64,000 bases of DNA from an uncultured Lachnospiraceae bacterium (GTDB lineage: Bacteria; Bacillota; Clostridia; Lachnospirales; Lachnospiraceae): NCBI GenBank assembly GCA_904395885.1, contig CAJFOF010000001.1, positions 25,765-89,764 on the forward strand, given 5' to 3'. The position numbers and the translations under genes are program-made. Shown here one piece after another: positions 15,540 to 53,700 of this stretch. The notes under the pieces were generated by a model that saw only the letters and a list, made by a program, of their open reading frames with translations, ran no database searches and had not been told where the DNA came from. Each line of letters begins with the position of its first letter. Positions within the stretch are counted from its first letter, which is position 1.

Positions 15540-15545
15540 AAAAAG

Positions 15546-15886
15546 TGGACCTGAGGGGAATCGAACCCCTGTCCGAAAATCAATTCCCTGTTCTTCTACT
15601 ATCATAGTCTGCTATTTATCATTCCCTCTGCCATCCGAAAACAGACATCCTGATGGGTTCAGTAGCTTCATAATTACGCCCGCAGGTTCAAAGCTTTGCC
15701 TGTGTCGTTTCCCGCATCGTCGATGCCAGATTCTCTATGTGCGGGTGCACAGAGGCTGACAGTCGCTGCAATTAAGCAGCGTATGCTAAATTATCTTCAG
15801 CGTTTATATTTAGGTTTGCCATTTAACCCATTGCATGGGGATAGCTTCACCAGCTTCATGATCCCCGTCGAAACCAGTACAAGCCC
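15546..15886 (-). ncRNA. ssrA: Transfer-messenger RNA
   Basis: Acceptor strands GGGCTTG (5', 15886-15880) and CAGGTCC (3', 15553-15547) pair with two wobbles; TTTCGACGGGG and GGTTCGATTCCCC T-arm; tag ORF 15819-15772 reads ANLNINAEDNLAYAA*. Confidence 0.95.
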
Positions 15887-47678: not shown

Positions 47679-48302
47679 CTAACAGCTCTGCCCTCTGCCA
47701 TCCTTCGTGTCAAAAGCAGGATTAAATGCATAAAAATTCTTAGAATCCAACTGGTCGCAGACGATCCGGAGCGCTTCACCAAATCTCTGATAATGGACAA
47801 TCTCCCTGGCTCTCAGGAACCGGATCGGCTCTGCTACCTCAGGGTCTTTTACCATCCGCAGAATATTGTCATATGTTACCCTGGCCTTCTGTTCCGCAGC
47901 CAGGTTCTCGTGCAGATCTGTGATCGGATCGCCTTTTGACTGGAATTCGCAGGCGTTAAACGGTATCCCTCCGGCAGCCTGAGGCCACAGCCCTGTTGTG
48001 TGGTCAATATAGTACGGCCCAAAGCCGGACTCTTCAATCTGCTGCGGGGTAAGATTCCTGGTCAATTGGTGTACAATCGCTCCGATGATCTCAAAATGTC
48101 CCAGTTCTTCCGTACCGATATCTGTCAATACCCCTTTACATTCTTTATAAGGCATAGCGTATCTCTGCGACAAATACCTCATAGCCGCAGCACTCTCTCC
48201 GTCAGGGCCGCCATACTGGCTGATGATAAAAGAAGCCAGCTTGGGATTTGGCTGTGAAATTTTCACCGGATATTGAAGCCTTTTTTCATATTTCCACATT
48301 AT
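47679..48302 (-). CDS. cotJC: Spore coat protein CotJC / manganese catalase family
   Basis: MWKYEKRLQYPVKISQPNPKLASFIISQYGGPDGESAAAMRYLSQRYAM; TDIGTEELGHFEIIG. Confidence 0.95.
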   Translation of the reverse strand: MMWKYEKRLQYPVKISQPNPKLASFIISQYGGPDGESAAAMRYLSQRYAMPYKECKGVLTDIGTEELGHFEIIGAIVHQLTRNLTPQQIEESGFGPYYIDHTTGLWPQAAGGIPFNACEFQSKGDPITDLHENLAAEQKARVTYDNILRMVKDPEVAEPIRFLRAREIVHYQRFGEALRIVCDQLDSKNFYAFNPAFDTKDGRGQSC

Positions 48303-48568
48303 TCGCATCCTCCTTCCCAGGGCCAGGGATTTTCTACCCAAGTCCAATAGCAGTCAGATTGAACTCCTTCAATTGTCAGCGGGCCGCACTGATTTTCAAA
48401 AGCGCCAACAGCGTCAGCGTAATCCTGGGAAGCCCGTTTATAGCATTCTAAAGCCCTCGGGTCACAGGGATGGGTATCCAGATAAAGAATCAGGTCATCC
48501 AGCATAAATCCTGTTTCATAGACTCGCCTCATCAGCGATTCACAATTGCGATTCATCATACTCGGCAC
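48299..48568 (-). CDS. cotJB: Spore coat protein CotJB
   Basis: ETGFMLDDLILYLDTHPCDPRALECYKRASQDYADA..YGPLT-like..W..NPWPWEGGCE. Confidence 0.94.
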   Translation of the reverse strand: MPSMMNRNCESLMRRVYETGFMLDDLILYLDTHPCDPRALECYKRASQDYADAVGAFENQCGPLTIEGVQSDCYWTWVENPWPWEGGCE

Positions 48569-49122
48569 CCCCTTGGCTGGAATGGCAGATATAAATCCGG
48601 GAAAATCGTCCCCTTACAGAATCCTTCTTCCATGGAATACAGTTTTTGCCATTGCTGCCACGGAACGTAAGCCATGGCAATCTGGTAATGGTTTTCTAAT
48701 GGACCAGGCGATGTGTCAGTACATTTATCTTTCCATTTGCAGCATGGCTCCGGCTGCATCGGTCTGTTTCCTGTCCCCGGTCCCATACCGGGCATCATAT
48801 TCGGGCCATAACCAGGCATCACGTTCGGACCGCAGCCAGGCATCACGTTCGGACCGCAGCCAGGCTTCGTATTGTTAGAACCGCAGCCGGGGTTACCGCC
48901 TGGTTTTGAACCACAATTGCACAGAGGCGCTGAGGAAACACAGCCTCCGACTGCAGATGGTTTAGAGGAACAGGAACTGCAGGAGGAAGCTTTTACCGCC
49001 TCCTTGTCTTCACCGGCTTCCGGCTTCGTCGGCGCCGACTTCTGGGAAGTCCCTGGCGAGACGGGCAAAGGACCGCGAAAATGTCCGGAATTCATATTTC
49101 TTCTGGAAGAATAGAAATCCAT
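48556..49122 (-). CDS. cotJA: CotJA-like spore coat associated protein with Gly/Pro/Asn/Cys-rich repeat extension
   Basis: C-terminal MAYVPWQQWQKLYSMEEGFCKGTIFPDLYLPFQP; repeat CGPNVMPG; overlaps cotJB. Confidence 0.9.
   Translation of the reverse strand: MDFYSSRRNMNSGHFRGPLPVSPGTSQKSAPTKPEAGEDKEAVKASSCSSCSSKPSAVGGCVSSAPLCNCGSKPGGNPGCGSNNTKPGCGPNVMPGCGPNVMPGYGPNMMPGMGPGTGNRPMQPEPCCKWKDKCTDTSPGPLENHYQIAMAYVPWQQWQKLYSMEEGFCKGTIFPDLYLPFQPRGCRV
48812..48861. repeat. 24-bp tandem repeat (CGPNVMPG codons) within cotJA
   Basis: ccaggcatcacgttcggaccgcag twice in tandem with degenerate flanking copies. Confidence 0.9.
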
Positions 49123-49247: not shown

Positions 49248-49547
49248 ATGTGTAGATGTAATTGCAGATGCCACAACTGGAGATGTTGCTGCCACAATAA
49301 CAATAATTGCTGCTGGAACTCTGACTCAGACAATTCCGAAGACTGGAATTCCCGTGAGCAAATTTACAAACGCGGGTATGCTGATGGCTTCCGCGCAGGA
49401 TGCAACGTAGGATTTAACAACGGATATATTGCCGGCTATACGGATGCACTGAACCAGTATTGTATCACTTCCCACGGATGCGGTTCCTGCTGCAATACCT
49501 GGAACCGAAATTTCCGGTCAGAATCTTCCTGTGAATGTGATTCCTGA
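49248..49547 (+). CDS. Cys/Asn-rich small protein with GX3 repeat block
   Basis: AAAGGAGAG RBS; MCRCNCRCHNWRCCCHNNNNCC...RGYADGFRAGCNVGFNNGYIAGYTDAL; strong hairpin 49611-49648 downstream. Confidence 0.8.
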   Translation: MCRCNCRCHNWRCCCHNNNNCCWNSDSDNSEDWNSREQIYKRGYADGFRAGCNVGFNNGYIAGYTDALNQYCITSHGCGSCCNTWNRNFRSESSCECDS

Positions 49548-49610: not shown

Positions 49611-49648
49611 CAGAATCCCCGGCCAAAGGCCTTTGGCCGGGGATTCTG
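49611..49648 (+). terminator. Terminator hairpin downstream of the Cys-rich gene
   Basis: cagaatccccggccaaa-ggcc-tttggccggggattctg. Confidence 0.8.
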
Positions 49649-49862
49649 TCTGTTGTTCTTCTCTCAATGGCCAAAATCAAGGGTCCTCTTTTCTTGGAAA
49701 GTTTACATTTCGTCCATATTTTCTTCACATCTAACTGCTAATATAGAGAATGTCAAGAAGGAAACTCCTTTTTCACATTTTCATTAAAACTTTTTCATAC
49801 TTATGGCCGGCAGTGATTTGCCGGCCCCTCCCTTTTATATCGGCCTGATTTTCTGTCCTGTC

Positions 49863-49891
49863 TTGCATTTTCCTCTTTACCGTGCTAAAAT
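49863..49891 (+). promoter_or_regulatory. Extended -10 promoter candidate for the 49897-49998 RNA
   Basis: TTGCAT - 17 nt - TAAAAT with TGC extended -10 (TGCTAAAAT). Confidence 0.5.
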
Positions 49892-49896
49892 GAATG

Positions 49897-49998
49897 ATCA
49901 TACCAGTTCCGGGAGGAGTGCGGTTTTGCCCGTATCGCAGGTGTCCGGTCTCACACTAATTTATCCCGGGAACACGCTGCGGCTGGTATGATTTTTTC
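49897..49998 (+). ncRNA. Candidate ~100-nt structured RNA, unidentified
   Basis: Outer stem ATCATACCAG (49897-49906)/CTGGTATGAT (49983-49992), inner TTCCGGGA/TCCCGGGAA with one bulge, then TTTTTT. Confidence 0.5.
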
Positions 49999-50063
49999 TA
50001 ATTTTTTAAAAAACTAGTTGCAATTTCCTCAACTATTTGCTATAATGATTGAGCGTTGAAGAA

Positions 50064-50137
50064 CGGGGTATGGCGTAGCTTGGTAGCGCGCTCGGCTGGG
50101 GGCCGAGAGGTCGCAGGTTCAAATCCTGTTGCCCCGA
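50064..50137 (+). tRNA. tRNA-Pro (anticodon GGG)
   Basis: CGGGGTA acceptor / TGCCCCG; anticodon arm CTCGG-CTGGGGG-CCGAG; GGTTCAAAT T-loop; preceded by TTGCAA-17-TATAAT. Confidence 0.96.
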
Positions 50138-50250: not shown

Positions 50251-51537
50251 TCAGTGGCTTGCGGGCATCTTCTGATTAATGTTTTCCAAAATTTTCCTTT
50301 TCTCATCTAATCCGCTAATGTCGAAAGTATAATATTTGTTATTCACAGCTTCCGAATGTCCTAAAAGAGAGGCGGCTACCGTAACCGGCACACCGGCGCA
50401 ACGCATCTTGGAATTTACGGTTCTTCGGTAAGCGTGGATTCCCTTTTCTGTGATTTTCAGCTGACGGCATTTGTTTTTGGAACAGGAAGAAATCACCGGA
50501 GCATGAATCCTTCCATCTTCATCAGCGAACACCCACTCGCAAAGATAACCGTTCTCCATTTCCGCTTTCTTTACTCGATCAAGCAGGTCCCTGATTTCTT
50601 CCGTCAATGGTATAACGCGCTCCTTAACATTTTTTGTGTCATCAATGAAATACTCTTTTTTCATTCGGTCGTACTTTTCCGATTGATTCACGATGATGTA
50701 AGAATCTTTGACTTTATCCCAAGTCAATGCAGAAATTTCTCCCACTCTCATCCCTGTAAGGCTGGCAAGCTCTACCGCATATGTCGGGATATATCCGGAT
50801 TTTTTTTCATGATCATTGTAAAACCGTTCATACAGTTCAGCCATTTCCGTATCTGAGACCAAAAGAGTATCCGCTGTTCTTTTCCGCTCGGTACAGTACC
50901 GGTAAAAGTCCTTTGCTCCAAGATCATCCATGGGATTCTTCTGGATCATTCCGCTTCTCACTGCGCGATAAAACGTTCTGTTCAGATAGCTGAAAAGCGT
51001 TTTACACGCTTCTTTGCAAAGCTTTTTTTCTTTCACCGTCCTGCAAATAAAAAGTTTCACCTCATCCTCGCCAATCGATTCGACATTCTGTTTGCAAAAT
51101 TCTGCATTTTCAAAGTACCTCCGATAATCGGACGCATACTTCGTGATCGTATTGGAACCCACCAGCTGATCCTGATAATTTCTCCATTTGAAATAAGCAT
51201 CCTCAAAGGTAACGATATGACTGTTTGCTTCTTTTCCTTTATAGAATGCAACAATCGCATCTTCGATGCTTTCTCTCGTGCTTCGTTTTACCAGCCGTCT
51301 GTCATTATTTATCTCCGGTAAGTACGTGCGCCATTTTCCATCCTTGCCCTCCCAGATTTTGTACTTGTGCTGCTCTATAATTTTTCTTTTTTCTTCCATG
51401 GCATAATCAGCCTGCACCTGCGCCAGGTCAAGCTTACCACATTTGATCGCGTATTTCAACAATTCGTCTTGAGTCATCATTTTATCCAGGAGCCGATGTA
51501 CATCCTTAGCCCGGCCGGGGGCTCGGTCTCCTTTCAT
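50251..51537 (-). CDS. Tyrosine recombinase / phage-type integrase
   Basis: ELASLTGMRVGEISALTWDKV; GIHAYRRTVNSKMRCAGVPVTVAASLLGHSEAVNNKYYTFD. Confidence 0.95.
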   Translation of the reverse strand: MKGDRAPGRAKDVHRLLDKMMTQDELLKYAIKCGKLDLAQVQADYAMEEKRKIIEQHKYKIWEGKDGKWRTYLPEINNDRRLVKRSTRESIEDAIVAFYKGKEANSHIVTFEDAYFKWRNYQDQLVGSNTITKYASDYRRYFENAEFCKQNVESIGEDEVKLFICRTVKEKKLCKEACKTLFSYLNRTFYRAVRSGMIQKNPMDDLGAKDFYRYCTERKRTADTLLVSDTEMAELYERFYNDHEKKSGYIPTYAVELASLTGMRVGEISALTWDKVKDSYIIVNQSEKYDRMKKEYFIDDTKNVKERVIPLTEEIRDLLDRVKKAEMENGYLCEWVFADEDGRIHAPVISSCSKNKCRQLKITEKGIHAYRRTVNSKMRCAGVPVTVAASLLGHSEAVNNKYYTFDISGLDEKRKILENINQKMPASH

Positions 51538-51651: not shown

Positions 51652-53700
51652 TTACAGCTTTTTCTTCTGAAAAACCCTTCGTCCCGAAATAAAGGCCTTT
51701 CTGGCCTTCCGGCTTTCCTTCTGCTGCTGCGTATCCAGTGCTGCCGGGACGTCCTCTTTCGGAAAAGATTCCTCCAGAAGATTTTGAAAAAGGTCGTGCT
51801 TCAGATTCAGGCATATCGCCTCTTCGTTCCACAGTTCTCCACGGTGGCCGGTGTATTCACTGCCGTCATACCGAGCCCGACACTGAACCGCCCAATACCT
51901 CAGCCTCGGATACGGCTTGCTGTACCGAGCCCCGCTGTCCCAGCGAGGCCAGGTCAGAATTATCTGCTGTTTTGCCAGAACTGATAATGTGATCCGCCTG
52001 CCTTCCTCCTCCGTCAACCGCTTCTCCGCAACATACTTCTTTACTTGCTGTTCAAGCATCTGCGTAAAATCGTCCCGCAAAATCACCAGTGCTGCTTCCT
52101 CATGTGCAGAAATCCCACATAGATCCGCACCATCCAGGGATTTTTGCACATTTCGAACCAAAAGGGCATCATATTTGAGAGGTTTATCAATTTCCTCTGC
52201 AAACATGAACTGCTCCTCCTCCAGTTTTCCCCACCGACTCTCCAATTTTGCTTCACGGATTCTGTCCTCCTTTATCAGCCGGCTGATTACGTCCCGTGTC
52301 AGGTTCTGGACAACGTTATCTATTCCTCCAAGATTTTCCATCGTATAGCGCACTGAGTGCTCCACGCTTCGCCTTGCTGCCTCTAAAAATGTCTGAATCT
52401 CATTCCTTGCATCGGGAAAAGTCGTCATCAGAAAGTTTCCAAAAACATCCGTAACGAAGAGCAGCCGATCTCTTGTATCCCTCATTCTCTGTCCATTGGA
52501 GCGACTCTCATATTCCCACGGCTTATTGCGTAAATCCCGCATTTTCTCTCGCCAGACCTCTCTGCTTCCAGTTTCATTGGCTTGCCGGATAAGCCATAAA
52601 ATAAACCCTCCCACCAGGTCCGCCTGCCACTCAAGATGCTGCTGCAGCTCCGTCAGTATTCTCTTTTTCTCCGGTTCCTGGATGAAATCACCCACATCCA
52701 CAATGATCATTCTGGCGCTCTGCGACTCCGTGGTCCGGCGATACTCACCCGTAAAGATTGCGCAGGTTCCAACCACGGTATCAGCTTCCTCCGTATTTTG
52801 GGATTTTCGTTCCGTTACTCTTCCCCGGTAAACACTTCTCACGATAATGTCGAGAATTGCTCGCGTTTTCTCCCGCTGCCTCTGCGAATCTTCATCCTTG
52901 AAATCATCAGCAATCAGCGCATGACCGTCGCTTTCCACCAATGTTCTGACTGCGCAGGCAACTTTTTCCGTAGCCGATAAAACCGACCTTTCATTCCACA
53001 CGAGTTTACCGTCTTCGTCGAAAGGTTCCGGTTCAACAAATGTGCCGACCGTTTTCGCCAATGTAGTTTTCCCCACGCCGGAATCCCCCTCCAGCCAAAG
53101 ACTCAGGCTCAGGTCAATGCCCATATTACGGAACAAATTCCGAACCGCAGCTAACAGGTTTACAGCAAAAATCGGATACAACGTATCTGACTGCCGGCGG
53201 ATCAGTTCCAGAAAGGCAGTCGCATCCTTCATATCCTGCCAATCACAGGTCCCGAAATAGTAACAATCCGTAACCTCTGCGCGTATCGTTTCGCAAACAC
53301 CATTCTCCGTAATCGCTCCATTTGAAAAAGCAAAGATCCATTTGCCATCCACCTTTTGAAAGCCTGTTCGCGCAGTGATAATTTCCGTCCTGGGGAAATG
53401 ATCTTCGGCCGCCGACAAGGCCCGCCTAAAGTTTTGGTTAAACTCCGCAGGATTCTCCGTCCAGATTATCGGAGAAATCTTTTTGCGCCAGCCTCCCGAA
53501 TTCACCTCGCCCGCGCTGATGTTCACCGTTTTCTCCTTACTACCGTTAATGACAAGCCTAATCCGGTATATGGTCTGCCCTGTCGCAAGGTTCTGCTCAA
53601 GTGCTTCCGGATACAGGAGAAAATTGGAAATTCTTTTTCCATTTTCGTAATAACCGTCGCCACGTGCTTCGTAATTTTGAAATTGGAGTTCCATCTTCAT
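51652..53700 (-). CDS. P-loop ATPase, DUF927-like / replicative helicase-type mobile element protein
   Basis: Walker A GDSGVGKTTLAKTVG, Walker B-like HALIADDFKDE; position in element. Confidence 0.65.
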   Translation of the reverse strand: MKMELQFQNYEARGDGYYENGKRISNFLLYPEALEQNLATGQTIYRIRLVINGSKEKTVNISAGEVNSGGWRKKISPIIWTENPAEFNQNFRRALSAAEDHFPRTEIITARTGFQKVDGKWIFAFSNGAITENGVCETIRAEVTDCYYFGTCDWQDMKDATAFLELIRRQSDTLYPIFAVNLLAAVRNLFRNMGIDLSLSLWLEGDSGVGKTTLAKTVGTFVEPEPFDEDGKLVWNERSVLSATEKVACAVRTLVESDGHALIADDFKDEDSQRQREKTRAILDIIVRSVYRGRVTERKSQNTEEADTVVGTCAIFTGEYRRTTESQSARMIIVDVGDFIQEPEKKRILTELQQHLEWQADLVGGFILWLIRQANETGSREVWREKMRDLRNKPWEYESRSNGQRMRDTRDRLLFVTDVFGNFLMTTFPDARNEIQTFLEAARRSVEHSVRYTMENLGGIDNVVQNLTRDVISRLIKEDRIREAKLESRWGKLEEEQFMFAEEIDKPLKYDALLVRNVQKSLDGADLCGISAHEEAALVILRDDFTQMLEQQVKKYVAEKRLTEEEGRRITLSVLAKQQIILTWPRWDSGARYSKPYPRLRYWAVQCRARYDGSEYTGHRGELWNEEAICLNLKHDLFQNLLEESFPKEDVPAALDTQQQKESRKARKAFISGRRVFQKKKL

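Follow-up and report, generated by a model that had tools for sequence, protein, structure and literature searches.

Among the structured RNAs that bacteria express from genes of their own, 6S RNA (RF00013) is a stand-alone, single-copy molecule that works by binding RNA polymerase and not by antisense pairing. An RNA encoded in the 64,000-nucleotide stretch of Lachnospiraceae DNA analysed here (the window) is likewise stand-alone, single-copy and structured, but 6S RNA is ~180 nt long and forms one long hairpin with a bubble, whereas the Lachnospiraceae RNA is a four-way junction of ~100 nt. It is neither 6S RNA nor a replacement for it, since 6S RNA coexists with it in the genomes that carry it (16/17 carriers, against 17/17 non-carriers tested) and in G000 lies elsewhere (C21), not at this locus. 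Bacterial Y RNAs of the YrlA type resemble it in being ~100 nt long with paired ends and a U-rich 3′ end; however, no tRNA-like T-arm is seen in the Lachnospiraceae RNA, and the Ro60 (TROVE) gene was found in 0/30 carriers, which rules out a Ro-associated Y RNA. CsrA decoys of the CsrB/RsmZ type display GGA in a hairpin loop, as does the window RNA (GGGAGGA), but in relatives GAAA or UUCG types take the place of this loop. Finally, orphan structured RNA classes have been discovered, as here, by comparative genomics from conservation and covariation (PMC8632094, PMC11109978); the present RNA differs in matching no Rfam family, in having been found only in Lachnospiraceae and in being unattached to a gene. 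As far as shown, it adds a new family to an established category, the orphan stand-alone RNAs of bacteria, and does not amount to a novel type of system.

The initial annotation had not recognised this RNA as tmRNA, SRP RNA, 6S RNA, RNase P RNA or a common riboswitch, and the Rfam scan that it proposed supports this for these and every other Rfam family: nothing in Rfam 15 overlaps 49895-49998 even at E up to 10, no family was found for locus L014, and nothing came near the cut-off for L119. Across the whole window, Rfam at gathering cut-offs and ARAGORN report only a tmRNA (15543-15886) and a tRNA-Pro (50064-50137). No description was found in the published literature, motifs listed solely in survey supplements falling outside the scope of that search.

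Gene anatomy

A discrete RNA gene, equipped with a promoter of its own (TTGCAT-17-TAAAAT) and a U-tract, occupies 49897-49992 (+) (Table 1); its status as a true structured RNA gene is almost certain. The extended -10 element TGCTAAAAT (49883-49891), 17 nt past TTGCAT, and the complementary strands of the closing stem, ATCATACCAG and CTGGTATGAT, are present as first described. Two details shift slightly: the short gap between the -10 element and the stem, put at about 6 nt, is 5 nt, and of the TTTTTT said to follow the stem, five Ts lie beyond it, the remaining one being the final base of the stem.

Table 1. Sequence and structural features of the RNA gene (window coordinates)
Feature	Position	Strand	Remarks
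-35 element TTGCAT	49863..49868	+	Read directly; TTG-like -35 enriched at the same distance in relatives
-10 element TAAAAT	49886..49891	+	Extended TG at 49883-49884; 17-nt spacer; read directly
Structured RNA	49896..49997	+	Ends deduced from the distance to the promoter and from the U-tract
P1 closing stem, 5′ strand	49897..49906	+	10 pairs, all changed on both sides in divergent set A4
Junction U, invariant	49907	+	Faces invariant G 49982; U and G in 98/98 sequences having both letters
P2, 3-bp hairpin UCC[GGGA]GGA with GNRA tetraloop	49908..49917	+	Third pair C-G becomes U-A in relatives
P3 hairpin GUGCGG...CCGUAU	49918..49935	+	Conserved G.U wobbles at base; 97.5-99.5% of cells paired, covarying; sequence variable
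P4: CGCAG-GUGU / ACAC-(G bulge)-CUGCG, GA bulge, CCGG/CCGG, 17-nt loop	49936..49981	+	13 pairs covary
P4 terminal loop, 17 nt	49949..49965	+	Candidate binding site; YUCAC and AUUAUC segments conserved
P1 closing stem, 3′ strand	49983..49992	+	Pairs with 49897..49906, covarying
U-tract after P1, probable terminator	49992..49997	+	T enriched at the same place in relatives

The same arrangement recurs in relatives. A perfect TATAAT stands upstream in 72 of 108 distinct loci compared with 40 of 2220 controls (p about 1e-79 by Fisher's test, with related loci counted as though independent), and at these 108 loci the -10 hexamers with 5-6 matches mostly end 13-15 nt ahead of the last P1 5′ base; the distance from promoter to RNA is thus fixed across loci. 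A TTG -35 element is also enriched, and a U-rich stretch lies past P1: numbered from the first base of the 3′ strand of P1, positions 10-14 have 54-63% T, which returns to background by about position 18. A sigma-A-type promoter would be expected to start transcription at the foot of P1, and the U-tract directly past P1 would end it. Own promoter, covarying structure, terminator-like U-tract and independence from neighbouring genes, the hallmarks of a stand-alone bacterial structured RNA gene, were all found, in agreement with the earlier reading as a discrete RNA gene without an ORF.

On the other side of the balance, a few members (L018, L039 and L051) have no clear promoter of their own, and there the RNA lies directly past a CDS or tRNA. 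In the lineage comprising L039, L051, L060, L064 and L072, the RNA, again without a clear promoter, directly follows a CDS stop in an apparent 3′ UTR, and P3 is longer; the preceding CDS, named by eye, is presumably a pyruvate-carboxylase-like subunit.

Structure and covariation

The window RNA has a minimum free energy of -42.4 kcal/mol versus -29.3 ± 3.5 for shuffles (z -3.8; 0/200 shuffles as good), and its compact four-way junction, P1-P4, is common to relatives. Changes on both sides were observed for 15 of 29 pairs among 67 close relatives and for 29 of 32 pairs among 60 more divergent ones (set A4), an outcome that answers the covariation check proposed at the outset in favour of the structure. 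For the divergent set, which was fitted to a covariance model and therefore leans towards structure, the covariation score was 0.591 (shuffles 0.200 ± 0.009) and 94.7% of cells were paired (shuffles 75.0%), while every register slide left less than 49% paired. The first alignment, made structure-free by MAFFT, revealed the same helices, and an alignment of 100 sequences left the structure and covariation picture unchanged; two weak members, L139 and L145, were excluded from the largest alignment. Folding of single sequences gave the same shape for the window RNA and L119 and close variants for L141, L142 and L138, L135 alone folding differently. No pseudoknot is supported by mutual information, which yields only nested helices and extra P3 pairs.

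At the junction, U 49907 and G 49982 probably form a U.G pair stacked on P1, which, if formed, would leave zero unpaired bases there. The P2 loop is of the GAAA, GGAA, GAGA or UUCG type in relatives and looks structural because it is replaceable (GNRA or UUCG). The upper part of P4 swaps among CCGG/CCGG, CUAAG/CUUAG and CCAG/CUGG, with GCAU/AUGC variants also occurring in P4. The inner pairing TTCCGGGA/TCCCGGGAA that had been proposed just inside the closing stem is not the conserved structure, since it is impossible in relatives whose P4 has CUAAG/CUUAG; its strands instead contribute to the GNRA hairpin P2, where UCC pairs with GGA around the GGGA loop, and to the top of P4, where the partner of the downstream CCGG is the CCGG at 49945-49948. 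The unpaired bases that are conserved cluster in P4, in the GA bulge (A 98%) and in the terminal loop (in A4, central A 93% and UC 91-93%), and the loop sequence varies by subfamily (CUCAC versus GUGCAAAC). An apparent likeness to the 16S rRNA 3′ end (CCGTATCGGA..GGTG) was dropped, being confined to one subfamily, with the rest changing by covariation.

Distribution

BLAST against 98 related genomes gave matches far beyond chance (E 3e-54 within the genus and 4e-24 in another genus), and those in other genera were confined to the RNA domain, as in G022 (bases 39-132 of a 201-base query, 87% identical). The core pattern GGGAGGAGTGCN{8,30}GGTGTCCNGNCTC, run on a genome collection of 84,980 species, returned 71 stretches, of which 66 are the RNA and 5 are chance matches in Actinobacteria or Gemmatimonadetes; the true matches are nearly all titled Lachnospiraceae or Enterocloster, Hungatella, Merdimonas, Acetatifactor and the like. 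Enterocloster citroniae and Hungatella hathewayi are among the carriers. Three successive covariance models then identified the RNA in 56, 64 and 66 of 397 Lachnospiraceae genomes, always in one copy per positive genome. This amounts to roughly one carrier for every six genomes sampled from the family (66/397), a frequency that the true one may exceed because large scans use strict filters. At higher ranks, model R2 found it in 1 of 245 genomes of the class, namely the window's own, and model R3 in 3 of 146 genomes of the order, all Lachnospiraceae. In total, about 110 relatives were collected, all Lachnospiraceae as far as sampled, with a median identity to the window RNA of 75% and a minimum of 44%; the models match the window at 49896-49999 with 109-119 bits. 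A 27-bit match (L146) in an apparent coding stretch was judged false. A phage or plasmid origin was rejected, there being no match among phages or plasmids and viral contigs being negative in a pattern search.

Candidate partners and mode of action

With moderate confidence, we read the locus as a stand-alone gene that belongs to a new RNA family and whose four-way-junction product works in trans without Hfq, CsrA or Ro60, protein binding through P4 being the likeliest route; the grade given to this full statement reflects its mechanism, which is deduced. In the proposed mechanism, the ~100-nt transcript would fold so that P1 meets a short tetraloop hairpin (P2), a variable hairpin (P3) and the long P4, with its two conserved bulges and conserved 17-nt loop. 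The RNA would be constitutive and act in trans; most likely the junction serves as a rigid scaffold from which the bulges and loop of P4 are offered to a partner protein, the RNA being a regulator or a decoy.

Three protein families were tested as partners (Hfq, CsrA and Ro60), and none of them emerged as one. An Hfq gene was found in 0 of 80 Lachnospiraceae genomes with a model (PF17209) that detects the E. coli and B. subtilis controls, which rules out an Hfq-dependent small RNA. CsrA is rarer in carriers (8/40) than in non-carriers (24/40; Fisher p 5e-4, a value that ignores phylogeny), and this scarcity may reflect only lineage or flagella loss. A role as CsrA decoy was ruled out, as the GGA loop is not conserved in relatives and only those 8 of 40 carriers have CsrA.

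The strongest competing explanation is a trans-acting antisense small RNA, in which the P4 loop (YUCAC...AUUAUC) would pair with mRNAs and the junction would only protect and present it. The loop is the only long conserved single-stranded stretch, its conservation would also suit mRNA pairing, and the gene is stand-alone with promoter and U-tract; yet the helices and bulges are conserved far beyond what a seed requires, the loop differs by subfamily, and no Hfq gene was found in the 80 genomes. We regard antisense action as rather unlikely. Protein binding is preferred to it, at roughly even confidence, because there is no attached gene and no Hfq, and because a rigid fold holds conserved unpaired bases in P4.

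Genomic context

Flanking gene families recur within lineages only and are unrelated between lineages, and the downstream gene lies on the plus strand at 41 loci and on the minus strand at 58 (binomial p 0.11). Since flanking genes and strands are arbitrary, the RNA is a stand-alone gene and not a riboswitch. At some loci, a close same-strand gene downstream (at L042 and L015, ORFs that we take by eye to be FMN-reductase-like and Uma2-like, respectively) would suit a leader or riboswitch acting on it in cis, but downstream strand is arbitrary and gene identity differs between lineages, a U-rich stretch closes the RNA, and no consistent same-strand downstream gene was found. The cis-acting reading is thus largely refuted and very improbable.

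A tRNA-linked or tRNA-processing role, suggested by the tRNA-Pro neighbour that the initial annotation had pointed out, fares slightly worse still. Within 400 bp of the RNA, 19 tRNAs occur in 17 of 111 loci, a raw count that looked enriched, and at L018, L127 and L128 a tRNA directly abuts it. However, at the same loci, long intergenic regions with the RNA contain tRNAs about as often (14/75) as those without (7/47; p 0.63), and the isolated tRNA kinds are alike in both. Among genomes of the same genus as the window, the arrangement with tRNA-Pro is retained in G001, tRNA-Pro and the RNA stand at separate places in G003, and G002 has tRNA-Pro and no match to the RNA. The adjacency is accordingly incidental.

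A catalytic function, such as that of a self-cleaving ribozyme, might be suspected from the compact, conserved junction and the invariant bases left unpaired, but is equally remote, given that no Rfam ribozyme matches, the conserved unpaired bases lie mostly in the P4 bulges and loop, and the gene setting is stand-alone.

Other features near the RNA

Directly after the tRNA-Pro, a tyrosine recombinase (50251-51537, -; PF00589, E 1e-15) is followed by a large ORF (51652-53700) with no Pfam match; together they look like an integrative element at the tRNA-Pro 3′ end. No second copy of the tRNA-Pro end was found in the window, and no integrase was seen in the sequence examined just past the tRNA-Pro of G001.

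Upstream, 49739-49825 (+) weakly matches the Listeria small RNA rli22 (RF01457, clan CL00114; 35.9 bits against a cut-off of 80, E 4e-4). It has TAATATAGA near its start and a hairpin of GGCCGGCAGTGATTTGCCGGCC with CCTCCCTTTT at its end, and is possibly a second, CU-rich small RNA; similar stretches also precede the RNA at L002 and L003. A near-perfect palindrome at 49611-49648 (CCCCGGCCAAAGGCCTTTGGCCGGGG), which drew many spurious miRNA matches in the Rfam search at E up to 10, is probably the terminator of a small Cys-rich ORF (49248-49547). A spore coat operon of CotJA, CotJB and a CotJC-like manganese catalase (47679-49122, -) lies nearby, and at L042 and L058 the RNA likewise has relatives of this catalase and of CotJB in its vicinity.

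Implications for Lachnospiraceae

A bolder proposal is that four-way-junction RNAs of this type, dependent on a protein or acting in trans in some other way, form a class of their own: an accessory regulator unique to Lachnospiraceae, at work in bacteria that lack Hfq and for the most part CsrA, and by a mechanism unlike that of described small RNAs; we offer this tentatively, as a possibility. Lachnospiraceae rank with the commonest bacteria of the human gut, and the 80 genomes of the family tested show no Hfq gene. The ~110 sequences, the well-supported structure and the promoter together provide a handle for detection, deletion and partner pull-down, and should that partner turn out to be an unknown protein, a new RNA-protein regulator would be indicated for these bacteria.
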